Assembly: GCF_030269305.1 (NCBI RefSeq)
Contig: NZ_BSTC01000008.1
Coordinates: 62,001-126,000, forward strand
Direction of reading: 5' to 3'
Origin: Kineosporia sp. NBRC 101731
GTDB taxonomy: Bacteria; Actinomycetota; Actinomycetes; Actinomycetales; Kineosporiaceae
DNA length: 64,000 bases
The notes beneath the pieces were generated by a model. It saw only the letters and a list, made by a program, of their open reading frames with translations, was not told the DNA's origin and did no database searches. Numbering within the stretch: the stretch's first letter is position 1; each line of letters starts with the position of its first letter. Both the position numbers and the translations under genes were made by a program. Positions 4,742-50,740 of this stretch are shown in pieces.

Positions 4742-4918
4742 ATGGGTGTGAAGAAGGCGAAGAAGAAGTGCTGCAAGGACAAGCCGCGGTGCAAGACCTG
4801 CCCGGTCGTGCTCAAGCGACTGTCCGACGCGGGCTTCGCCACGCGCATCGACCTGCGCACCTACGAGTTCGACGGCAAGCCGCCGAAGAAGGCCGTGTCT
4901 GAGGCCCGCTCGCGCTGA
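4742..4918 (+). CDS. Small Cys- and Lys-rich protein under an iron box
   Basis: A 58-residue basic protein with four cysteines near its N terminus (C10, C11, C17, C20; pattern CC-x5-C-x2-CP), followed by a conserved-looking VVLKRLSDAGFATR. I recognise it as a small conserved actinobacterial hypothetical protein but know of no assigned function. The cysteine cluster could bind a metal. No ribosome site is visible and a TAATGT box lies seven bases upstream, so the mRNA is probably leaderless. The iron box at 4713-4731 places it in the iron-limitation response. GTG 4736 is an alternative start. Confidence 0.7.
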   Translation: MGVKKAKKKCCKDKPRCKTCPVVLKRLSDAGFATRIDLRTYEFDGKPPKKAVSEARSR

Positions 4919-4929
4919 GCACGTCGTTC

Positions 4930-4978
4930 ACGTGGAAGTGCCCGCTCACCGCCTGGCGGTGAGCGGGCACTTCCACGT
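4930..4978. terminator. Bidirectional hairpin terminator
   Basis: A perfect 23-base-pair stem (4930-4952 with 4956-4978) and a three-base loop lie between convergent gene ends at 4918 and 4986. There is no U-tract, as is common in high-GC actinobacteria. Confidence 0.8.
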
Positions 4979-4985
4979 CAGATGA

Positions 4986-5906
4986 CTAGCTGAGGCCGTT
5001 GCTGGAGAGGAACTCCTTGGCGACGTCGGCCGGGTCCTTCTGGTCGAGGTTGACCTCGCCCATCATCGAGGTGAGGTTCTCGGTGGTGAGCTTGGCCGAG
5101 ACGGCGTTCAGCGCGGTGGTCACCGTGTCGCTGGCCTTCTCCTTGTTCACGATCGGCACCACGTTCTGCGCCGCGAACTGGTTCTCCGGGTCTTCCAGCG
5201 CGACCCAGCCGTTCTCGGTGATGGTCGGGTCGGTGCTGAACACGTCGGCCGCGTCGACCGTGCCGTTCTTCAGGGCGGCGACGGTGAGCGGGCCACCGGC
5301 GTCCAGGGACTTGAACTCCTTGAACTCGACGCCGTAGTTCTTCTTGAAGCCGGGCACGCCGGTCGCGCGGGTCTTCCACTCCGGCGGGCCGCCGAGCACG
5401 AGGTTCTTGCCCTTCATGTCGCCGATCGACTTCAGGCTGTACTTCGCGGCGGTCTCCTTGGTGACCGTCACGACGTCCTTGTCCTCGGCCGTGGACTGCT
5501 CGAGCACCGTCAGGCCCTCGGGCAGCGCGTCGGGCAGGGCGGCGTACACGTCTTCGGAGCTGACGGCCGTGGCCTTGTCGTCGAGGTACGAGAGCAGGTT
5601 GCCCGAGTACTCCGGGAGCAGGTCGATCGAGCCGTCTTCGAGGCCCGGGATGTAGGCCTCGCGGGAGCCGATGTTGAGCTTCTTGGAGACCTTCACGCCC
5701 TTCGCCTCGAGGGCGCCGGCGTAGATCTCGGCCAGCAGCACGTTCTCCGGGAAGTTGGCCGAGCCGACGGTGATGCTGTCGCTGGACGAACCCGCGTCGC
5801 TGTCGCTGGTCGAGGTGGCGAGCGGGTCGCTGCCCCCGCCGCACGCGGTCAGCGCCAGCGAGGAGACAAGGGCCGCCGTAGCGAACATCATGCTGCGTCG
5901 TTTCAT
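4986..5906 (-). CDS. Quaternary-amine ABC importer, substrate-binding lipoprotein (ProX/OpuC type)
   Basis: A 306-residue lipoprotein. A basic n-region, a hydrophobic stretch and the lipobox LTAC put the lipidated Cys near residue 22, followed by a Ser/Asp-rich linker. The body starts ITVGSANFPENVLLAEIYAGALEAKG, typical of OpuAC/ProX binding proteins, with an EYSGNLLSYL block and FSTDPTI. The family binds glycine betaine, choline, carnitine and, in EgtU, ergothioneine; the ligand here is not readable. AGGAG stands 8 bases before ATG 5906. It is the last gene of the operon, after ATPase and two permeases, and ends at the shared terminator. Confidence 0.88.
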   Translation of the reverse strand: MKRRSMMFATAALVSSLALTACGGGSDPLATSTSDSDAGSSSDSITVGSANFPENVLLAEIYAGALEAKGVKVSKKLNIGSREAYIPGLEDGSIDLLPEYSGNLLSYLDDKATAVSSEDVYAALPDALPEGLTVLEQSTAEDKDVVTVTKETAAKYSLKSIGDMKGKNLVLGGPPEWKTRATGVPGFKKNYGVEFKEFKSLDAGGPLTVAALKNGTVDAADVFSTDPTITENGWVALEDPENQFAAQNVVPIVNKEKASDTVTTALNAVSAKLTTENLTSMMGEVNLDQKDPADVAKEFLSSNGLS

Positions 5907-40074: not shown

Positions 40075-41139
40075 ATGCTCGAGCTCCTCCAACGTCACGG
40101 GCGTCGTCTGGCCCTTGTGACGGGCGTTCTCACCCTCGCGGCGGCTGTCGTCGCCGGGACCGGATACTGGTTCTGGCAGCGCGATCCCGTGGGTGACGAA
40201 GCCACCTCCGGCGCGGTTCCCGAGCGCACCGTGCCGCCCTTGCGCAACGGTGTCTTCGTCGGGACCTCGAAGGAGGACGCCGACGCCTTCCAGCAGTGGC
40301 TCGGCGGCGACGTCGACCTGGTGGTGGACTTCTCCACGCGGGAGACCTGGGAAGACATCTCCGACCCGGACTACATGCTGCAGACCTGGAAGGGATCCGG
40401 CTACCGGCCGGTGTACTCGGTGGCGCTGCTCCCGACGGGTGATGCCTCGGCGACCGTGCAGCGGGGTGCCACCGGGGAGTACGACGAGCATTACCGCGAA
40501 CTGGCGCAGAACCTGGTGAAAGCCGGTCAACCACGCGCGATCCTGCGACTGGGCTGGGAATTCAACCTGGAGAGCTCACGCTGGGCCACTCCCGACCAGG
40601 ACGCGTTCATTGCCTACTGGAAGCAGATCGTCGACACCATGCGGTCGGTCGAGGGACAGCATTTCGAGTTCGACTGGAACCCCAACAACGGCAAGAACAC
40701 GTTCGACGCGGTGAAGTACTACCCAGGCAACGACTACGTGGACTACATCGGGGTCGACGCCTATGACGTCTCGTACGCCTGGCGCACCTACCCCTACCCG
40801 GACGACTGCGACAGCGACTGCCGCCTGAAGCGTCAGCACCGGTCCTGGGAAAAGGCGATCTACGGCGGCAAACGGGGACTGGAGTTCTGGTCCGACTTCG
40901 CCCGGCACCGGGGCAAGCCGATGTCGCTGCCTGAATGGGGCCTGTGGGAACGTCAGGACGGGCACGGCGGCGGGCTCGACCTCTGGTACCTGCAGAAGAT
41001 GGGGGAGTTCATTGCCGATCCGGACAACGGGGTTGCCTACCAGGCCTACTTCGAGTTCAACGGCGATGACGGCCCGCACAAGCTGATGACGACGTACCCG
41101 GATGCAGCCGAAACTTTCCGTGGTCTTTTCACGGATTAA
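40075..41139 (+). CDS. Membrane-anchored GH26-like glycoside hydrolase, first of a tandem pair
   Basis: A 354-residue protein: short basic N terminus, one membrane anchor (about residues 12-33), then a GH26-like barrel outside the cell. ILRLGWEFN contains the likely acid/base Glu and MSLPEWGLW the likely nucleophile Glu; DWNPNNGK, YVDYIGVDAYDVSY and a paired Cys segment (DDCDSDCR) are shared with the next gene. GH26 includes beta-mannanases and endo-glycanases, so it may trim or release the polymer made here, but substrate is not readable. The ATG lacks a clear ribosome site. Confidence 0.78.
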   Translation: MLELLQRHGRRLALVTGVLTLAAAVVAGTGYWFWQRDPVGDEATSGAVPERTVPPLRNGVFVGTSKEDADAFQQWLGGDVDLVVDFSTRETWEDISDPDYMLQTWKGSGYRPVYSVALLPTGDASATVQRGATGEYDEHYRELAQNLVKAGQPRAILRLGWEFNLESSRWATPDQDAFIAYWKQIVDTMRSVEGQHFEFDWNPNNGKNTFDAVKYYPGNDYVDYIGVDAYDVSYAWRTYPYPDDCDSDCRLKRQHRSWEKAIYGGKRGLEFWSDFARHRGKPMSLPEWGLWERQDGHGGGLDLWYLQKMGEFIADPDNGVAYQAYFEFNGDDGPHKLMTTYPDAAETFRGLFTD

Positions 41140-41226: not shown

Positions 41227-41322
41227 GTGACCCAGCAGCGCTCAGACATGCCCGGTGAAGGTTTCTGCGCGCTGTCGAGATGGGCTGCTCAGGGTGAGTG
41301 GCCAGGGTTCGGTCATGCCTGA
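41227..41322 (+). CDS. Possible leaderless 31-residue leader peptide upstream of the second GH26 gene
   Basis: A TACACT box (41213-41218) lies eight bases before GTG 41227, which starts a 31-codon frame ending in TGA 41320-41322. The hydrolase ATG at 41315 overlaps that stop as ATGCCTGA. This would let a leaderless mRNA deliver ribosomes to an ATG that has no good ribosome site of its own. There is no homology support. Confidence 0.4.
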   Translation: MTQQRSDMPGEGFCALSRWAAQGEWPGFGHA

Positions 41323-43171
41323 CCACCCGCCTGGCCGGCCGAACCGCTACGGGGCGGATCCCAGCGCGGAGCCCCCCTACGACCGCCTCGACGGCCGGGG
41401 TCCAGGTCGCGATCAGCGGGATCCCTATGCCTCCGAGCAGGATGTGTATGGGCACGAAAACGTCCGTCCTGAGCGGGAATCCGGATATGAGCGGTCGGAT
41501 CCGGCGTCTGAGGGAAAGGGCTGGCAAGACCGGCAGAACACCCATCCACGGTATGAGTGGCAGGGCCGGGCGTCGGCCGACGAGTACGACCAGCGCCCCG
41601 ATGGCCAGCGATCCCGCCGGGAGATCCAGGGTTCCTGGAGCGAGCCCGACGACGTGCGCCGAGGGGCGCCGGGTTCGGCCCGGCGACGCACCGAGAGGCC
41701 CCGCGGCCAAGAGACGGAGAGTTCGCGCCGAACGGTGCAGGGGCGTGCGCAGCGCGCCGGCCGGTCCCGCCCCGAACGCGCGGAGAACACCGAGCGCACC
41801 GACCGCATCCGCTCGTCCCGGGGCGGCGACCAGAACGATCTGAACGACCGCACCAACCCTCGGGGCTTTCGACGCGACAGCGGCAAAGAGCTCAATACCG
41901 GGGACGAGCGGCCGAGTTTCTTCCCTATGGAGTCCGAGGCCCGCGACGACGGCAGGACCTCTGAAGCGCAGCCCGTTCCCGGTGAGGGAGGGGCGAGTTT
42001 CCCGAGTCTCGGAGGCAGTCGTACCTCCCCGCCCCCGCGCAACCAGCCCTCGTTCCGTCAGCCCAAAGACCGGACCACCCGGCGCCGGGTGCCGATGATC
42101 GCCGCCATCCTGGCCGTGCTGATGATCATCGGCGGTGTCGCGTACGCGCTGGGCACGGCTGAGAAGGAGGAGTCCGGTACGTCGGCCACCCCCACGGTCG
42201 CCGCGACGGGCAGCTCGCAGGTCACCGAGACCACGGCCCCGGTCACCACCGGCGCCGCGAAGAAGGTGCCGGTCGGCGTCTTCCGCGGCACCTCGCCGTC
42301 CGAGGTGCAGCAGTTCTCGCAGTGGCTGGGGAAAGACGCCACCTACGCGGTGGACTACTCCAGCCGCACCACCTGGGACGAGGTGGCCAACCCCACCTAC
42401 ATGCTCAGCACCTGGCAGAACTCCGGCTACACGATGGTCTACGCGGTCGCGATGCTGCCGACCCAGGTCAGCTCGGTGAGTCTGGCGAAGGGTGCCGACG
42501 GGGAGTACGACCAGTACTTCACCACGCTCGCGCAGAATCTCGTGGCCTACGGCCAGGGCGACTCGATCATCCGGCTGGGCTGGGAGTTCAACGTCGGTGG
42601 CTGGACGTGGCACCCGAAACCCGACGACAACGGCGACTTCGTCACCTACTGGCGCCGCATCGTGAAGGCCATGCGGGCGGTGCCGGGCGCGCAGGACCTG
42701 AAGTTCGACTGGAACGTCAACAACGGCGGCGACACCTACGACTCGACGGTCTACTACCCGGGGAAGAAGTACGTCGACTACATCGGCGTCGACGTCTACG
42801 ACATCTCCTGGGAGGAAGACGCCTACCCGTATCCGTCCGAGTGCACGTCGGCGTGCCGCCTGGCTCACCAGGAGGCGGCCTGGGCGAACATTCTGGACGC
42901 CCGGTTCGGGCTGGTCTTCTGGTCAGACTTCGCGGAGTCGCAGGGCAAGAAGCTCTCGCTGCCCGAATGGGGTCTCTGGGAGCGTCCCGACGGTCACGGC
43001 GGGGGAGACAACTCGTACTTCATCCAGCAGATGTACGAGTTCATCGACAACCCGCAGAACAACGTCGGTTATCAGGCGTACTTCGACTTCACCACCGATA
43101 CCAAGGGCACTCACGCGCTCGACAGCATGCCCAAGGCCGGGGCCAGGTTCAAAAAGCTCTTCAGTAAATAG
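41315..43171 (+). CDS. Membrane-anchored GH26-like glycoside hydrolase with a long disordered N terminus
   Basis: A 618-residue protein if ATG 41315 is used. Residues 1-260 are highly charged and low in complexity (many Arg, Glu, Asp, Gln), 261-279 form one membrane helix, 285-318 a Thr/Ser-rich spacer, and 320-615 a GH26-like barrel. Catalytic-type glutamates are in IIRLGWEFN and LSLPEWGLW. Over the barrel it is clearly a paralogue of the gene at 40075, including YVDYIGVDVYDISW and the CTSAC pair. The 260-residue cytoplasmic extension is absent from the first copy. GTG 41294 and a start at 41255 are alternatives. Confidence 0.75.
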   Translation: MPDHPPGRPNRYGADPSAEPPYDRLDGRGPGRDQRDPYASEQDVYGHENVRPERESGYERSDPASEGKGWQDRQNTHPRYEWQGRASADEYDQRPDGQRSRREIQGSWSEPDDVRRGAPGSARRRTERPRGQETESSRRTVQGRAQRAGRSRPERAENTERTDRIRSSRGGDQNDLNDRTNPRGFRRDSGKELNTGDERPSFFPMESEARDDGRTSEAQPVPGEGGASFPSLGGSRTSPPPRNQPSFRQPKDRTTRRRVPMIAAILAVLMIIGGVAYALGTAEKEESGTSATPTVAATGSSQVTETTAPVTTGAAKKVPVGVFRGTSPSEVQQFSQWLGKDATYAVDYSSRTTWDEVANPTYMLSTWQNSGYTMVYAVAMLPTQVSSVSLAKGADGEYDQYFTTLAQNLVAYGQGDSIIRLGWEFNVGGWTWHPKPDDNGDFVTYWRRIVKAMRAVPGAQDLKFDWNVNNGGDTYDSTVYYPGKKYVDYIGVDVYDISWEEDAYPYPSECTSACRLAHQEAAWANILDARFGLVFWSDFAESQGKKLSLPEWGLWERPDGHGGGDNSYFIQQMYEFIDNPQNNVGYQAYFDFTTDTKGTHALDSMPKAGARFKKLFSK

Positions 43172-43183
43172 ACCCCACACCAT

Positions 43184-43225
43184 GGAGGACGCCTCTGGAG
43201 ACTCGAGTCTCCAGAGGCGTCCTCC
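43184..43225. terminator. 42-base perfect palindrome, bidirectional terminator
   Basis: Exact 21+21 palindrome centred on ACTC/GAGT, between the convergent ends of the second GH26 gene (43171) and the SAF-domain dehydrogenase gene (43244). Confidence 0.85.
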
Positions 43226-43243
43226 AGCAGGGTTTTCCACAGA

Positions 43244-44530
43244 TCAGGCGAAGAGCCCGGCCTGCTCGATGCGCAGCTGGTCGATCAGCCGGCCCTCGGG
43301 CAGCGTGACGTCGGCGTAGGTGAGCACCTCGTCCTTGGCCACGTCCCGCAGGAGGACGCAGCCCTCGGTGACGCCCATCGGCAGCAGGTTCTCGTCCCGG
43401 GTGACCGAAGCCTTCTCGGCCACCGAGTACGTGTCGTAACCCCCCAGGCCGTCGATCGTCTGGCCGGCCTTCAGGTCGCGCTTGGCGACCGCGACGACCT
43501 CGACCGTGGGCGCGCCCAGGGGCTGCATCACGGCGTCGTTGAACAGCACGGCCCGCGCCACCGACAGCGGAACTTCGAAGTGGCACAGGTGGTACGGCGT
43601 GTAGAAGCTGTACAGCGGGCCCTCGCCGAGCTTGTACAGGTTCAGGTAGTGCTTCTGCTTCGGGTCGTCATGCGTGGCGAGCACGAAAACGCCCGGGCCC
43701 GGCTGGCTTCCGACCACGTAGTCGACGTAGCCACCGGCCGCCTTGAGTTCCTCGACGTCGTACGCGCCGGTCAGCTCGTCGACGTGGGCGCGGTGGTCGG
43801 AGCCGCGCATGCCGCGCTTCTCGACCGTCATGCCGGTCGCGTTGGCCACGATCGCCTGCTCGAAGGAGATCTTCGTGCCGTCGGCGAAGGAGGTCACCAT
43901 GTGGGGGTCCTGCCCCCACTGCTTGGCGAAACCCTCCTGCGTGGTGGGGTTCCGGTACTCGTCCTGCAGGCCCTTGATGTTTCCGCAGACCAGCGGCGTG
44001 AGGCCGATGCTCTTCACGAAGCGCACCAGGTTCATCTGCACACCGGGCTGGTCGCCGTCGCAACCGGTCACGATAACGCCCTTGGCGTCGGCGCGAGCCT
44101 TGAGCGCGGAGCCCACGGTGCCGTCGACCTCGGCGTTCAGCAGCACCACGTGCTTGCCCCCGTCGATGGCCGAGGTGACCACGTGGGCGCCGAACTCGAC
44201 GTTGCCGGTGGCCTCGACGATCGCGTCGATGCCCTCGGCCAGGGTGACGGCCTCGTAGTTCGAGGTGATGACCGGGATGCCCGCGGCGACGGCCTTGGAC
44301 GTCTCCTCGGCGGTCTGCGTGACCTCCCACGACGTCACGCCGGCCTCGGTGTAGGCACGCTCGGCGTTGGCCTGCGTGCGGTTCACGATGGCGGCGACGA
44401 CCATGCCGGGAACCGAGTTCACGACCTGGTTCACGAAGCCGCGGCCCATGAAGCCGGCGCCGACCAGGGCGACCCGCACCGGGTTACCCTCGGCTTCACG
44501 CTTGGCCAGGGCGGTGTCGACGATGATCAC
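43244..44530 (-). CDS. NAD(P)-binding oxidoreductase with C-terminal SAF domain (predicted homoserine-dehydrogenase-like)
   Basis: A 428-residue protein. NPVRVALVGAGFMGRGFVNQVV is the Rossmann motif near residue 18, HVVLLNAEVDGTVGSALK and TGCDGDQPGVQMNLVRFVKSIG follow in the substrate region, and the last 90 residues form a SAF domain (VVAVAKRDLKAGQTIDGLGGYDTYS, PMGVTEGCVLLRDVAKDEVLTYADVTLPEG). This architecture is annotated as a homoserine-dehydrogenase-like group and recurs in glycan clusters, with no reaction I can name with certainty. GTG 44530 overlaps the stop of the epimerase-like gene (GTGA), and it is last in the CDP-sugar operon. Confidence 0.75.
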   Translation of the reverse strand: MIIVDTALAKREAEGNPVRVALVGAGFMGRGFVNQVVNSVPGMVVAAIVNRTQANAERAYTEAGVTSWEVTQTAEETSKAVAAGIPVITSNYEAVTLAEGIDAIVEATGNVEFGAHVVTSAIDGGKHVVLLNAEVDGTVGSALKARADAKGVIVTGCDGDQPGVQMNLVRFVKSIGLTPLVCGNIKGLQDEYRNPTTQEGFAKQWGQDPHMVTSFADGTKISFEQAIVANATGMTVEKRGMRGSDHRAHVDELTGAYDVEELKAAGGYVDYVVGSQPGPGVFVLATHDDPKQKHYLNLYKLGEGPLYSFYTPYHLCHFEVPLSVARAVLFNDAVMQPLGAPTVEVVAVAKRDLKAGQTIDGLGGYDTYSVAEKASVTRDENLLPMGVTEGCVLLRDVAKDEVLTYADVTLPEGRLIDQLRIEQAGLFA

Positions 44531-45066
44531 TGGTCGGCACCTTCCATCAGCGCCCAGGAGGCGTCCTTGGCGCTGATGACGTTGACCGGCAGCGGCCAGG
44601 TCAGGCCCAGCGCCGGGTCGTCGTACCGCTGGCCGCGCTCGGCGTCCGGCGTGTACTTGCCGGTGACCTGGTACATCACCTCGGTGTCGTCGACCAGGGT
44701 CTGGAAACCGTGGGCGAACATCGCGGGCACGTACAGCGCCTTGCGGTTCTCCGCGGTCAGCTCGACCGACACGTGCTGCAGGTAGGTCGGCGAGTCGGGA
44801 CGCATGTCCACGATCTGGTCCACGACCGCGCCGCGCACGCAACGGATCAGCTTGACCTCGGGGGCGTACGCCAGTTGGTAGTGCATCCCGCGAAGGGTGC
44901 CCGCCTTGTGGTTGTACGACATGTTGCACTGCTCGACAGCCGGGTTCAGGCCCGCGGCCTCGAACTCGGTCACGTCGAACGTCCGGGCGAAGAAGCCCCG
45001 GTCGTCCTCGCGACGCTCGAGCTCGATGATCGCGACGTCGGGGATGTGCGTCTTGGTGATGATCAC
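44527..45066 (-). CDS. RmlC-like sugar-nucleotide 3,5-epimerase (cupin)
   Basis: A 179-residue member of the dTDP-4-dehydrorhamnose 3,5-epimerase family. It keeps the start IPDVAIIELERREDDRGFFARTFD, the catalytic-His motif LRGMHYQ (H62), the VDQIVDMRPDSPTY block with its Asp, and the aromatic pocket EVMYQVTGKYTPDAERG. In this operon the substrate is probably a CDP- rather than dTDP-keto sugar (inference from the cytidylyltransferase). It is joined by GTGA overlaps to both neighbours. Some family members only 3-epimerise. Confidence 0.82.
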   Translation of the reverse strand: MIITKTHIPDVAIIELERREDDRGFFARTFDVTEFEAAGLNPAVEQCNMSYNHKAGTLRGMHYQLAYAPEVKLIRCVRGAVVDQIVDMRPDSPTYLQHVSVELTAENRKALYVPAMFAHGFQTLVDDTEVMYQVTGKYTPDAERGQRYDDPALGLTWPLPVNVISAKDASWALMEGADQ

Positions 45067-46097
45067 TGGGCCGCCTCCTTGGTCCAGAACAGGTCGGCGT
45101 CGAGCTGCTTGGTGCTGATCAGGTGCTCGAGCTGCTTCAGGCGCGTGTGGCCGCGGCCGGTGAAGGTGGCCTCGTCCATGTCGATGGCCTGGAAGACCTG
45201 GTGCAGCTGGGCCGCACCCTTCTGGGCGTCCCAGTCGCAGGAGAAGCCGGGCAGCTGCGAGGAGATCTTGTCGAAGTTCACCTTGTAGCTGCGGTTGTCG
45301 CCACCGGCCGGGCCGAAGGTGACCTCGCAGCCCGGGAACTCGGCGCCGACGGTCTCGGCGATCGTGCGTACCTGGTAGTTCTGCTCGTTGCTGCCCACGT
45401 TGAACTTCTCGTTGTGGACGGCCTCGCGCGGGGCCTCGAGCGCGCAGTAGATCGACTTGGCGATGTCCAGGCCGTGAACCAGCGGACGCCACGGCGTGCC
45501 GTCCGAGTTCATCGCGATCTTCTTGGTGGTCCACGCCAGGCCGGACAGGTTGTTCAGCACGATGTCGAAACGCTGCCGCGGCGAGGCGCCGAAGGCGGTG
45601 GCGTTACGCATGAAGGTGGGGGAGAAGTTGTCCGAGGCCAGGGCGCTCAGGTCACGCTCGACCAGGGTCTTGCAGTCGGCGTAGGCGGTCTGCGGGTTGA
45701 CCGGCGAGTTCTCGTCGACGGTGCCCTCGGCGACGCCGTACACGCTGCAGGAGCTCATGTAGACGAAACGCTCGACGCCGGCCTGGATGGCCATCTCGGC
45801 GAGCTTGACCGAGCCCTTGTGGTTGACCGTGTAGGTGACCTCGGAGAGCAGCTCGCCCAGGGGGTCGTTGGACAGCTCGGCCATGTGCACGATCGCGTCG
45901 ACGCCCTCGAGGTCGGCGACGGTGATGTCCCGGATGTCCTTGGCCAGTGTCTGGGCCGTGAACGGGACGCCGTTGTACAGCCAGCCCTGCCGGTAGTAGC
46001 CGGTGTCGACGCCGATCACTTCGTGACCGCGCTTCATCAGCTCGGGCGCCACCAGGCAGCCCAGGTACCCCTCGGTGCCTGTCACCAGGACCTTCAT
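45063..46097 (-). CDS. NAD-dependent epimerase/dehydratase (extended SDR)
   Basis: A 344-residue extended SDR acting on a nucleotide sugar. KVLVTGTEGYLG gives the Gly motif, HMAELSNDP the following helix, MSSCSVYG (S115-S118) and YADCK (Y139, K143) the catalytic residues, and PWRPLVHGLDIAKSI the usual substrate-binding part. It does not look like the standard CDP-glucose 4,6-dehydratase, whose N terminus differs, so its step (reduction, epimerisation or dehydration) is open. AGGAG lies about 8 bases before ATG 46097. It follows the cytidylyltransferase gene by 59 bases. Confidence 0.82.
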   Translation of the reverse strand: MKVLVTGTEGYLGCLVAPELMKRGHEVIGVDTGYYRQGWLYNGVPFTAQTLAKDIRDITVADLEGVDAIVHMAELSNDPLGELLSEVTYTVNHKGSVKLAEMAIQAGVERFVYMSSCSVYGVAEGTVDENSPVNPQTAYADCKTLVERDLSALASDNFSPTFMRNATAFGASPRQRFDIVLNNLSGLAWTTKKIAMNSDGTPWRPLVHGLDIAKSIYCALEAPREAVHNEKFNVGSNEQNYQVRTIAETVGAEFPGCEVTFGPAGGDNRSYKVNFDKISSQLPGFSCDWDAQKGAAQLHQVFQAIDMDEATFTGRGHTRLKQLEHLISTKQLDADLFWTKEAAQ

Positions 46098-46156
46098 GGT
46101 CAATTGCTCCTTGTTGTACGTACTCGGGTATGTGGGCGGTGCGGGGGTGGGGCTGC

Positions 46157-46975
46157 TCAGTCCTTCCAGAACTTCCAGACGGCTTCGCCCTTGTCCCACA
46201 TCTTGTTCAGCTCGGTCCAGTCCCGGTAGGTGTCCATACCCAGCCAGAAACCCTCGTGGCCGTTCAGCGTGAGCTGACCGTCGCGGGCCAGCTGCTGGAG
46301 CGGCACCTGCTCGAGCATCATCGAGTCGTCGTCGATCGGTGCCAGGTAGTTGTCGATGAAGCTGCGCTCGAACATGAAGAAGCCGCCGTTGACCCAGCCG
46401 GTGGCCAGGGTGGGCTTCTCGTTGAACTCGACGACCTGCCCGTCCTGCACGTGCATCTCGCCGTAACGGCTGGTCGGGTGCACGGCGGTGACGGTGCCGA
46501 TGCGGCCACCGGCGCGATGGGTCTCGACCACCTTGCTGATGTCGACGTCGCCGACGCCGTCGCCGTAGGTCAGCATGAACTGGTCGGCCTTGAGGTACTC
46601 GGCGACCTTCTTCACGCGGCCGACGGTACCGGTCTGGAGGCCGGTCTCGACGAAGGTGATCTCCCAGTCCTCGACCTGGCCGGCCGAGTGGTACACCGGC
46701 TGGGCGCCGTCGTGCGTCAGGGTGAAGTCACCCATCTGCTCGCGGTAGTCGAGGAAGTAACGCTTGATCGTGTCGCCCTTGTAGCCCAGGCAGATCACGA
46801 ACTTCCGGAAGCCGTGGGCGCGGTACATCTTCATGACGTGCCACAGCACCGGCCGGCCGCCGATGTCCACCATGGGCTTGGGCAGCTTGTCACCGCTGGC
46901 CTCGCGGAGCCGGGTACCCATACCCCCCGCGAGCAGGACCACGGGGATCTCGGAGACGGGCAGCTGTTCAGTCAC
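46157..46975 (-). CDS. rfbF: Glucose-1-phosphate cytidylyltransferase
   Basis: A 272-residue nucleotidyltransferase making CDP-glucose from CTP and glucose-1-phosphate. VVLLAGGMGTRLREASG is the nucleotide-binding signature, KLPKPMVDIGG the phosphate-binding lysine region, and VICLGYKGDTIKRYF, LTYGDGVGDVDI (metal-binding Asp), GWVNGGFFMFER and EGFWLGMDTYRDW are characteristic of RfbF. GTG 46975 has GAGGA 7 bases upstream; a longer start at 46993 is weaker. It begins the CDP-sugar operon; the usual partner RfbG is not seen in the window. Confidence 0.9.
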   Translation of the reverse strand: MTEQLPVSEIPVVLLAGGMGTRLREASGDKLPKPMVDIGGRPVLWHVMKMYRAHGFRKFVICLGYKGDTIKRYFLDYREQMGDFTLTHDGAQPVYHSAGQVEDWEITFVETGLQTGTVGRVKKVAEYLKADQFMLTYGDGVGDVDISKVVETHRAGGRIGTVTAVHPTSRYGEMHVQDGQVVEFNEKPTLATGWVNGGFFMFERSFIDNYLAPIDDDSMMLEQVPLQQLARDGQLTLNGHEGFWLGMDTYRDWTELNKMWDKGEAVWKFWKD

Positions 46976-47128
46976 AGGGCATTCCTCGCACATGGGGGGT
47001 GAACGGTCGGGTTCGGGGGGTGCTCAGCGCATTACCGCATGGTGCTGCGGTGGCCTCGGCGACCCAGTATGACGGCGCCCCTTGTTGTTCCGGCCGGGGT
47101 TGACCGGTTCGGCCCAGGGCACCGCCAC

Positions 47129-47168: not shown

Positions 47169-48827
47169 TCAGCCGCCCTCGGCCCGGATCACGGACATCG
47201 CCGTCCGCATCAGGATCTTGATGTCGAGCCAGAGCGACCAGTTCTCGATGTAGTAGTTGTCGAAACGAGCCCGCTCGGCGATCGAGGTGTCCCCCCGCAG
47301 GCCGTTGACCTGGGCCAGGCCGGTGAGGCCACAGGGCACCCGGTGCCGGGCGACGTAGTGCGGGTGCTGGCTGCGGAACGTGTCGACGAAGTGCGGGCGC
47401 TCCGGCCGGGGGCCGACCAGGCTCATGTCACCGCGCAGGATGTTCAGCAGCTGCGGCAGCTCGTCGAGCGACGAGCGACGCAGGAACTTGCCCACCGGAC
47501 CGAGACGGTCGTCCAGGGCGATGTTCCAGTTGGTGGCGGATTCGGTCTCGTCCACCGGCTTGAGCGAACGGAACTTCATCACGGAGAAGTGCTGGCCGTC
47601 GACGCCCACGCGCTCCTGCTTGAACAGGATGCCGGGGCCACCCTCCATGCGCACGAGGGCGGCGATGACCGCCATCAGCGGCGAGAGGCACATCAGGGCG
47701 AAACCCGAGAAAGCGATGTCGATGGCCCGCTTCACCTGCCAGGCCCGGCTGCGGTAGGCCGCGCGGCGCAGGCGGATGAGCGGCATGCCCCACGCGGTGT
47801 CCATCTCGCCACCGACGTGGTGGAGCTCGAACAGGCGCGGCACTACGAAGATTTCACAGTGCAGACGGTCACAGGTGCGGATGATGTCGACCAGCTCGGA
47901 CTCACGCATCGAGCCGAACGCGACGATCACGTTGCGCACCTGGTGGTCGAGCAGGACCTCGACCAGCTGCTCGGGACGGCCCAGGATGCGGTGCGAGGCG
48001 CTGACGCCCGGCCGCGGCGGGTCGATGTCGAGGAAACCGATCGGCTGCAGGCCGTACTGCGGGTGCTGGGAGAGCGACTCGGCCAGATAGGTACCGACCC
48101 GGCCGGCGCCGAGGATCAGGGTGCGGTGCGCGATCCGGCCGGTGCGGCGGGCGTAGCGCACCAGGCCGTAGGCCATGCTGCGCAGGCAGACCGCGGCGAC
48201 ACCGGTGACCGCGGCGGCGATCAGCAGCTTCCAGTCGACCATCTCGATGTCCCAGCGCAGCTGGTTCAGCGTGAGCTGGCCGGTCACGGTCAGGGCCAGG
48301 ACCACCAGGAGGCGGCCGGACAGGGCCGGGAGGTCGTCGAGGATGCCCGGCGACAGCCGCGAGCGGTACAGGCCGGCTGTGGCGTAGGCGGAGATCAGCA
48401 GCACGGTGAAGAGACCCATGATCGGCCGGATCCCGCCGGAGGCCAGGGCCCCGGCCAGGCAGGCGATCAGGTCGAGCAGCACCAGCATCGGACGGATGCC
48501 GGCGCGGACCAGCGGCCCGGTCCAGGAACCGGCCGGCGGGTCGTCGTCCTGCGCGCCCTGGGTGACGTGGAGGTCGGCGCCGGGGCGCGGGGCCTGGTTC
48601 AGCTGCGGGAGCTGAATCGGCTGGGTCGCGGTCTGCTGATTGAACGGGGCCTGCGGGGCGTATCCCCCGTAGCCGTGCTGGGCCGCGCTCTGACTGGTCA
48701 GGTGCCGGTCGGGGGCTGAACCCCCACGAACATCGATGACCAGCCGTGGTTCGTCCGGGCGGGCGGCGTCCGGGACAATCCCCCCGGCGTCTCGCGAAGC
48801 CCTGCCCATCGGATCACGGAGCGTCAC
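47169..48827 (-). CDS. Initiating phosphoglycosyltransferase (WbaP/CpsE-type polyprenyl-phosphate sugar transferase)
   Basis: A 552-residue protein: a disordered Gln/Pro-rich N terminus (1-100), four or five membrane helices (about 110-225), a Rossmann-like CoA-binding-fold domain (RTLILGAGRVGTYLAE near 240), and a C-terminal bacterial sugar transferase domain (360-552) with RAIDIAFSGFALM, FKQERVGVDGQHFSVMKFRSL, SLDELPQLLNILRGDMSLVGPRP and LTGLAQVNG. It moves a sugar-1-phosphate from a nucleotide sugar to undecaprenyl phosphate, the first membrane step of polymer synthesis. GGGAGGG lies about 6 bases before GTG 48827. Confidence 0.9.
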   Translation of the reverse strand: MTLRDPMGRASRDAGGIVPDAARPDEPRLVIDVRGGSAPDRHLTSQSAAQHGYGGYAPQAPFNQQTATQPIQLPQLNQAPRPGADLHVTQGAQDDDPPAGSWTGPLVRAGIRPMLVLLDLIACLAGALASGGIRPIMGLFTVLLISAYATAGLYRSRLSPGILDDLPALSGRLLVVLALTVTGQLTLNQLRWDIEMVDWKLLIAAAVTGVAAVCLRSMAYGLVRYARRTGRIAHRTLILGAGRVGTYLAESLSQHPQYGLQPIGFLDIDPPRPGVSASHRILGRPEQLVEVLLDHQVRNVIVAFGSMRESELVDIIRTCDRLHCEIFVVPRLFELHHVGGEMDTAWGMPLIRLRRAAYRSRAWQVKRAIDIAFSGFALMCLSPLMAVIAALVRMEGGPGILFKQERVGVDGQHFSVMKFRSLKPVDETESATNWNIALDDRLGPVGKFLRRSSLDELPQLLNILRGDMSLVGPRPERPHFVDTFRSQHPHYVARHRVPCGLTGLAQVNGLRGDTSIAERARFDNYYIENWSLWLDIKILMRTAMSVIRAEGG

Positions 48828-49317: not shown

Positions 49318-50532
49318 TCAGCTGGTGGCCGAGACCATCAGGTCGCGCAGTTCGTCGGTGATGTACTCGGCGATCGCCAGCGACGACGTCGCGGCCGGGG
49401 AGGGCGCGTTGCGCACCGCCATGACCTTGTCGAGCTTGGAGATGCGGAAGTCGTCGACCAGCGAGCCGTCGCGGTCCACGGCCTGGGCGCGCACGCCGGC
49501 CTGGGCCTTCACCAGGTCGCTCGCCTGGATCTCGGGGACGTACTGCTGGGCGAACTTCACGTACAGCTTCTTGCTGAACGAGCCCGCCATCTCGCCGGCG
49601 CCCATCCGCCAGTGCTGCTGGGCGAGCTTGCGCATGCCCGGCCACTTCAGCGTCTCGAACAGCTCCGAGGGCTTGATCGTGCCGCGGGTGTACCCCTCGC
49701 GGGCGAAGGCCAGCACGGCGTTCGGGCCGAGGTCGACACCGCCGTGCACGCGCTTGGTGTAGTGCACACCGAGGAACGGGTAGTCCGGGTTCGGGACCGG
49801 GTAGATCAGGCCCTTGACCATGTGCGTGCGCTCGGGCAGGAGCTCGAAGTACTCACCGCGGAAGGGCACGATCGCGGGGCCCTCGTCGTCACCCGCCCAG
49901 GTGGCGACCTTGTCGGACTGCAGACCGGCGCAGACCACCAGCCGGTCGAAGACCAGGGTGCGGCCGTTCGACTTCACCTGGACCTTGCCGTTGTACTGCG
50001 TGATGCCGTCCACCGGGAAGTTGAACTCGATGGTGCCGCCCGCGGCGCGCACGTCGTCAGCGTAGGCGTCGGTGACGGCCACGTAGTCGGTGATCGCGGT
50101 GCGGGGGGAGTGCAGGGCCGCGACACCGGCCGCGTACGGCTCGATCTCCCGCAGGCCGACGTTGTCGAGCCACTTCACGTCCGGCACGCCGTTGGCCGCG
50201 GACTTCTCCTCGATCTTCTTCAGCCCGGCGACCTCGTCCTGCGTGATCGCCACGACGAGCTTGCCGCACTCGTCGTAGGGGAGCTTCTTCTCCTGCGTGT
50301 ATTCCTTGAGCAGCCCGACGCCACGACGGCAGAGCGTGGCCTTGAGGGAGCCCGGGGTGTAGTAGAGGCCGGCGTGCACCACGCCGCTGTTGTGGCCGGT
50401 CTGGTGGACCGCCGGACGGTCTTCCTTCTCCAGCACCGTGATCTGGGTGCCGGGGTAGACCTCGGTGATCCTCCGGGCGACGGCGAGACCGACGATTCCG
50501 GCGCCGATGACGCCGACGTGCTGAACGGACAT
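49318..50532 (-). CDS. lhgO: FAD-dependent L-2-hydroxyglutarate oxidase-like enzyme
   Basis: A 404-residue DAO-fold flavoenzyme: VGVIGAGIVGLAVARRI at the N terminus, EDRPAVHQTGHNSGVVHAGLYYTPGSLKA (conserved LhgO segment with the His-rich FAD contact), CGKLVVAI, and the C-terminal ISKLDKVMAVRNAPSPAATSSLAIAEYI that closes the FAD site. LhgO oxidises L-2-hydroxyglutarate to 2-oxoglutarate as metabolite repair, with electrons to quinone or O2. It lies inside the polysaccharide locus, and a sugar-acid or other 2-hydroxy acid substrate is an alternative. GGAGGAA is 6 to 7 bases before ATG 50532. Confidence 0.85.
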   Translation of the reverse strand: MSVQHVGVIGAGIVGLAVARRITEVYPGTQITVLEKEDRPAVHQTGHNSGVVHAGLYYTPGSLKATLCRRGVGLLKEYTQEKKLPYDECGKLVVAITQDEVAGLKKIEEKSAANGVPDVKWLDNVGLREIEPYAAGVAALHSPRTAITDYVAVTDAYADDVRAAGGTIEFNFPVDGITQYNGKVQVKSNGRTLVFDRLVVCAGLQSDKVATWAGDDEGPAIVPFRGEYFELLPERTHMVKGLIYPVPNPDYPFLGVHYTKRVHGGVDLGPNAVLAFAREGYTRGTIKPSELFETLKWPGMRKLAQQHWRMGAGEMAGSFSKKLYVKFAQQYVPEIQASDLVKAQAGVRAQAVDRDGSLVDDFRISKLDKVMAVRNAPSPAATSSLAIAEYITDELRDLMVSATS

Positions 50533-50740
50533 CTGGAATTCCTCCGAAATCAAGAAGAGTTCGAGGGTATCCAGCACCGCGGTGTGGTGATGACCGACTT
50601 CGGTCCTTCGTAGCCGGTTCGGTGTACTCCTTCAACGCATTGTTCATGGCGGATCCCCCGAACGGTGCCGTTCTGCTCCACCTCGGTGGCCCTGTGTGAC
50701 GGCGCCGGGAACCGGCAGCCCCGATCGATAAGGTCGCACC

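Follow-up and report, generated by a model that had tools for sequence, protein, structure and literature searches.

Gene content of the Kineosporia module

A 64,000-nucleotide stretch of DNA from Kineosporia sp. NBRC 101731 (contig NZ_BSTC01000008.1, positions 62,001 to 126,000), referred to here as a whole as the window, contains a four-gene set that lies entirely on the minus strand and encodes an RfbF-like cytidylyltransferase, an extended short-chain dehydrogenase/reductase (SDR), an RmlC-type epimerase and a SAF-domain protein resembling DXR-II. The first-pass annotation of this DNA had delimited the same four genes and proposed that they make an unusual deoxy or branched CDP-sugar. An unusual, probably branched CDP-sugar is also the best reading of the present analysis. 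The genes concerned, with two neighbors, are the following.

46157..46975, minus strand: rfbF-like glucose-1-phosphate cytidylyltransferase gene (GTG start; in-frame ATG at 46993)
45063..46097, minus strand: extended SDR, predicted to be a CDP-glucose C4-dehydrogenase that lacks dehydratase activity (ATG start; PF01370)
44527..45066, minus strand: RmlC-type 3,5-epimerase gene (GTG start; TIGR01221)
43244..44530, minus strand: DXR-II-like (DRL) oxidoreductase with a SAF domain, predicted ring-contracting reductoisomerase (GTG start; PF21135)
49318..50577, minus strand: lhgO-like L-2-hydroxyglutarate oxidase gene (NF008726; the likely start is the ATG near 50532)
47169..48827, minus strand: polyprenyl glycosylphosphotransferase, exopolysaccharide priming enzyme (PF02397, 214 bits), between lhgO and rfbF

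GTGA overlaps had been reported at every junction; they are present, at 4 nt each, at the SDR/RmlC and RmlC/SAF junctions, whereas rfbF and the SDR gene are 59 bp apart with no overlap. The lhgO gene, missed in the first pass, lies upstream of rfbF beyond the glycosylphosphotransferase gene, and its product scores 537.2 bits against NF008726 (cut-off 299).

The best PDB match of the first enzyme, ahead by a wide margin, is 1TZF (E 4e-75). Because the protein narrowly misses the TIGR02623 cut-off (298.2 vs. 300.25 bits) even though 1TZF is its nearest structure, it is called RfbF-like here.

The lack of a recognizable RfbG in the operon extends to the whole 8.26-Mb Kineosporia genome, in which no CDP-glucose 4,6-dehydratase exceeds the TIGR02622 cut-off (best score 80.4 vs. 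278.45 bits); a standard dehydratase acting from elsewhere, the objection foreseen in the first pass, therefore has no candidate above that threshold. The idea that the SDR is itself a hidden RfbG was also rejected, since at E 0.001 TIGR02622 does not match the protein, which carries S-C-S at the positions where dehydratases have T-D-E or T-D-K. In the YxxxK motif, Tyr and Lys are kept. The SSCS motif is invariant in nine of nine relatives and is replaced by STCS in four Streptomyces copies. Given the missing dehydratase residues, the 6-hydroxyl should stay on the sugar, and the "deoxy" part of the earlier proposal has been dropped. No NCBIfam family is matched above its cut-off, the top one being GalE (85 vs. 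262 bits). The nearest solved structure is 6vo6 (77.1 bits), which we take to be Cj1427, followed by MoeE5 (68.1) and a TDP-glucose 4,6-dehydratase (44). Cj1427 is described as a C4-dehydrogenase whose NAD+ is regenerated via the conversion of alpha-ketoglutarate to L-2-hydroxyglutarate (PMC10680097). The linkage with lhgO suggests that the SDR is likewise a dehydrogenase that must get rid of a net surplus of NADH, and it fits a predicted Cj1427-like, alpha-ketoglutarate-dependent C4-dehydrogenase.

The RmlC-type protein exceeds the TIGR01221 cut-off (173.9 vs. 155.75 bits) and keeps the catalytic residues H62, K72, and Y132. The Met/Phe marker in RmlC for the 6-hydroxyl proved uninformative: the position is Tyr in 69 of 69 related loci with a readable RmlC (L094-L163), even in L154, whose partner is an RfbG, and Phe in the window.

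The SAF protein combines a DRL_cat catalytic domain (PF21135, 189 bits) with a SAF domain and matches the DXR-II structures 3upl/3upy over residues 7-423 (E 6e-68); its next PDB match, a homoserine dehydrogenase, covers part of the Rossmann domain (E 6e-8). The earlier label "homoserine-dehydrogenase-like" thus holds for the N-terminal Rossmann part and was rejected for the protein as a whole, the catalytic domain being DRL_cat and DXR-II-like. DXR-II of Brucella (3upl/3upy) is the same three-part protein; however, its substrate is deoxyxylulose phosphate and its pathway that of isoprenoid synthesis, and the window DRL is not DXR-II itself, as the absolutely conserved Thr229 of that enzyme (PMC3847144) is here Ile221. 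DXR-II has two sister families described as uncharacterized, DLO1 and DLO2, and position 229 of DLO1 members is occupied by Leu, Ile, or Val (PMC3847144), a rule with which Ile221 agrees in the alignment to 3upl/3upy.

Judging from its predicted neighbors, the module sits in an exopolysaccharide locus. It is surrounded by glycosyltransferases and two GH26-like proteins (Pfam search), and flippase-, polymerase-, and chain-length-like proteins, judged from position and look with no Pfam match, are nearby. The GH26-like neighbors (40075-41139 and 41255-43171) look secreted and are oriented toward the operon. Both match Pfam families weakly and in part, and cleavage or trimming of the polysaccharide is a possible role. 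A perfect inverted repeat with arms of ~20 nt (counted by eye) lies at 43170-43240, between the SAF gene and a convergent gene; it has no clear T run and may end transcription on both strands.

Conservation of the gene set across genomes

When 84,980 species genomes were scanned with an alignment of 10 sequences, at least 540 relatives were confirmed; the 80 best were retained and all examined, with locus flanks of at most 7 kb. The four-gene set singled out earlier is conserved in these best 80 loci: RmlC is present in 79 (in the one exception, the sequence upstream is 71 bp long), an SDR of the window type in 72, and RfbF in 42; LhgO is present in 49. The association is far beyond chance. 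Where RfbF, LhgO, and SDR are all visible, LhgO sits between the other two in 29 of 33 loci. A StrL-type RmlD was found in none of the 80 loci within these flanks, which leaves DRL as the sole visible reductase of this sort.

The closest named relative among the matches listed is Kineosporia mesophila, with a DRL 99% identical to that of the window. Plasmids of three Deinococcus species carry a packed operon rfbF-lhgO-SDR-rfbC-SAF, and lhgO is part of the set in this genus as well as in many cyanobacteria. Plasmids of Paracoccus and Gemmobacter have rfbF, SDR, rfbC, and SAF genes. Smaller combinations also occur: only RmlC and DRL are in view in Rhizobium gallicum, and the same pair stands without RfbF, SDR, or RfbG in view in two Pseudonocardiales (L151 and L162) and in Chroococcus (L159).

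In two lineages, Leptolyngbya (L154) and Persicobacter (L169), a true RfbG (523.9 and 487.7 bits, respectively, vs. a cut-off of 278.45), with T-D-K at the dehydratase positions, replaces the SDR, while RmlC and DRL are kept. This constancy suggests that the enzyme making the 4-keto sugar is the exchangeable part, and the swap speaks for CDP-glucose and for a product with a 4-keto group. The swaps, like the enzyme families, the missing dehydratase residues, and the conserved set, can be read directly in the sequences.

Distant DRLs (~41% identity or less) mostly occur in other surroundings: among ten such loci (L072, L075-L083), only L077 and L081 show both RfbF and RmlC, and L075 shows RmlC by itself. 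A Priestia aryabhattai plasmid (L170) encodes a 38% identical DRL next to an FGGY sugar kinase, a major facilitator superfamily (MFS) transporter, and sugar-binding regulators; from these neighbors, other DRLs appear to function in the degradation of sugars. The Kineosporia genome also encodes, away from the module, another and only distantly similar DRL-like protein (~26-30% identity; G000:C6:470443-470943, L033).

Streptomycin-type clusters and the heterocyst island

Seven of 392 Streptomyces genomes match the window DRL at E 1e-25, four with 63-65% identity and three with 41% or less. The first four are exactly those with a StrB1-type amidinotransferase 82-100% identical to that of genome G789 (the next genome reaches 70%), and in each of them the DRL and the amidinotransferase are encoded in the same cluster. 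A second sample, of 394 Streptomycetaceae searched at E 1e-100, yielded three further genomes and one repeat. DRL is present in all seven streptomycin-type clusters examined, and RfbF, SDR, and RmlC join it in four (G778, G952, G1021, and G1050). RfbF is absent genome-wide (E 1e-15) from G480, G687, and G789, whose SDR was sought within the fetched cluster stretches only. The gene names for DRL, SDR, RfbF, and RmlC in these clusters are presumably strU, strP, strQ, and strX.

G1021 is Streptomyces glaucescens, as 15 kb of a 170,574-bp contig matches plasmid NZ_CP009439.1 at 100%; for strain GLA.0 of this species, the hydroxystreptomycin cluster has been published (PMC10886168). In G778 (L183, about 4860-5700), strE and strL are decayed remnants, the former missing approximately residues 13-255 and the latter fragmented; strD and strM are whole, as is the RfbF-SDR-RmlC-DRL module. 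In G952, strE, strL, and strM were not seen within about 60 kb. The G789 cluster contains a carbamoyltransferase, as expected for the bluensomycin type, to which we assume it belongs.

In a tree of 45 DRLs, the seven proteins from streptomycin-type clusters form one clade (100/100), nested in a 16-row clade that includes the window protein (98/98); their closest kin are the Pseudonocardiales DRLs (L151 and L162), and DRLs of about 41% identity or less fall outside the 16-row clade. The streptomycin and 5'-hydroxystreptomycin clusters share DRL and, in four of seven, the other three enzymes with Kineosporia, but most also hold the dTDP set StrD/E/L/M, and their product is an antibiotic instead of a polysaccharide.

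A further likeness concerns cyanobacteria. Synthesis of the heterocyst envelope polysaccharide (HEP) in Anabaena sp. PCC 7120 needs the island alr2825-alr2841, in which alr2825 is annotated as a glucose-1-P cytidylyltransferase, alr2826 as hypothetical, and alr2827 as an epimerase/dehydratase, followed by alr2828, alr2829, alr2830 (rfbC), and alr2831, an NAD(P)-dependent oxidoreductase (PMC4390870). One PCC 7120 protein has been assigned to DLO1 (PMC3847144). Judged against this published annotation, the cyanobacterial loci examined show the alr2825-alr2831 order, with LhgO at the place of alr2826. The island differs from the Kineosporia module in its two extra genes between the SDR gene and rfbC, in polysaccharide and phylum, and in the position of lhgO, which in Kineosporia lies outside rfbF with one gene between.

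A proposed route to a branched sugar and its alternatives

On a narrowly favorable balance of the evidence, the module would make CDP-3-C-(hydroxymethyl)-L-lyxose for an exopolysaccharide, through C4 oxidation, epimerization, and ring contraction with reduction. RfbF would make CDP-glucose, and the SDR would oxidize C4 with the 6-hydroxyl kept, its bound NADH being re-oxidized by alpha-ketoglutarate, which would yield L-2-hydroxyglutarate; LhgO would return the latter to alpha-ketoglutarate and so close the cycle. The RmlC-type enzyme would then epimerize C3 and/or C5, towards the L series. Finally, DRL, modeled on the action of DXR-II on deoxyxylulose phosphate, would contract the ring by an alpha-ketol rearrangement of the 4-keto sugar, leaving a formyl branch, and would reduce this branch with NAD(P)H to hydroxymethyl. 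All substrates in this scheme, as well as the cycle, the ring contraction, and the product, are inferred from homology, genomic neighbors, and gene loss. In its favor stand the DRL catalytic domain of the SAF protein, the replaced dehydratase residues of the SDR, the usual place of lhgO between rfbF and the SDR gene, the RfbG swaps, the occurrence of DRL in streptomycin-type clusters, the decay of strE and strL beside a whole module in G778, and the DLO1 gene of Coxiella.

The proposed sugar, 3-C-(hydroxymethyl)-L-lyxose, is dihydrohydroxystreptose (PMC5843353). For Coxiella, which makes it, a route has been proposed by C4 oxidation, epimerization, and then a synthase; in that account, CBU1838 and StrM are double epimerases with no sugar rearrangement, and two activities, C4 oxidation and ring contraction, still await named enzymes (PMC9095892). 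From their sequences, the SDR and DRL are candidates for these two, and the module would thus supply both steps left without an enzyme. The Coxiella route shares with ours C4 oxidation, an RmlC-type double epimerization, and a synthase, and Coxiella has a DLO1 gene (PMC3847144); it differs in its dTDP sugar and in the RmlD paralogue proposed as synthase (PMC9095892).

Several observations weigh against this route. The same study attributes ring contraction preferably to the RmlD paralogue (PMC9095892). As far as the account in PMC3847144 goes, no enzyme activity is on record for any DLO1 member, and a DXR mutant was not rescued by any of four DLO1/DLO2 representatives; in the window DRL, Lys191 of DXR-II is replaced by Asn184, in addition to the change at Thr229. 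RfbF and SDR occur without LhgO near them in eight of the 80 loci, and LhgO was not found in the fetched stretches of the Streptomyces clusters. StrL and DRL coexist in five of seven clusters. S. glaucescens and G1050 have whole copies of strE, strL, and strM, genes that the module should render superfluous; RmlD homologues (56-58%) are also encoded elsewhere in the G778 and G952 genomes. S. griseus makes 5'-deoxy streptose, and the link to hydroxystreptose would weaken if it had the module elsewhere in its genome. To our knowledge, analyses of heterocyst polysaccharide have reported only common sugars.

The most serious alternative, although an unlikely one, is that DRL takes the position of Cj1428 and simply reduces the C4 ketone, and that the product is an unbranched CDP-L-hexose of the L-manno type or similar. 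Streptomycin-type antibiotics contain N-methyl-L-glucosamine, and in their clusters a plain reductase would feed this sugar. In Campylobacter, the order Cj1427-Cj1430-Cj1428 is the same (C4-dehydrogenase, RmlC-fold epimerase, NADPH enzyme), again with L-2-hydroxyglutarate as by-product; however, the substrate is a GDP-heptose and the last enzyme a C4-reductase, not a DRL (PMC10680097). Moreover, strP, strQ, and strX are listed as essential for streptomycin yet outside the cluster, and N-methyl-L-glucosamine is treated as a module product by the authors concerned (PMC12498427). Streptose is already served by StrD, E, L, and M in five of seven clusters; the three str genes are, we assume, equivalent to SDR, RfbF, and RmlC. 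On the other side, the absence of RfbF from three streptomycin-type genomes weakens a use in N-methyl-L-glucosamine synthesis, and the DRL fold is known for reductoisomerization, whereas the NDP-sugar C4-reductases known to us are SDRs. A plain reductase paired with RfbG, as in Leptolyngbya and Persicobacter, would yield merely a 6-deoxy-L-hexose of the rhamnose kind, which is usually made as dTDP-rhamnose.

A role for DRL limited to switching the branch of streptose-type sugars between hydroxymethyl and formyl, with StrL or another RmlD contracting the ring, is quite improbable. Streptose does require the oxidation of dihydrostreptose, and DRL stands alongside StrL in five of seven clusters, but no StrL-type RmlD occurs near DRL in the 80 loci or in the packed five-gene Deinococcus operons, and the bluensomycin-like G789 cluster retains DRL although the sugar of bluensomycin is not known to be oxidized. 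Least probable of all is another nucleotide or sugar (e.g., a different NDP-hexose) with the SDR as an epimerase, for which the 2-bit shortfall of RfbF and the GalE match far below its cut-off could be cited, but which is opposed by the substitution of true CDP-glucose 4,6-dehydratases for the SDR in two lineages and by the lhgO linkage, which implies a dehydrogenase with net NADH.

The preferred route, with DRL as the ring-contracting enzyme, lends itself to a wider proposal, which we hold tentatively and with somewhat more doubt than confidence: DLO1-clade DRLs would be nucleotide-sugar reductoisomerases that act as (dihydro)streptose synthases in streptomycin-type clusters, the HEP island, exopolysaccharide loci of actinomycetes and Deinococcus, and Coxiella, and heterocyst and actinomycete polysaccharides would hold an unreported branched furanose. 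A literature search, thin in subscription papers, found none that connects streptose or CDP-sugars with a DRL or SAF protein, and novelty is to that extent unproven. Nucleotide-sugar pathways themselves are known; what is proposed as new is a nucleotide-sugar substrate class for the DXR-II fold. If this is true, the SAF gene of streptomycin-type clusters would gain a function open to test, and an overlooked branched sugar would be present in the heterocyst envelope, which shields nitrogenase from oxygen, as well as in exopolysaccharides of Deinococcus and actinomycetes. More generally, the DXR-II reductoisomerase fold would reach from isoprenoid precursors to nucleotide sugars.

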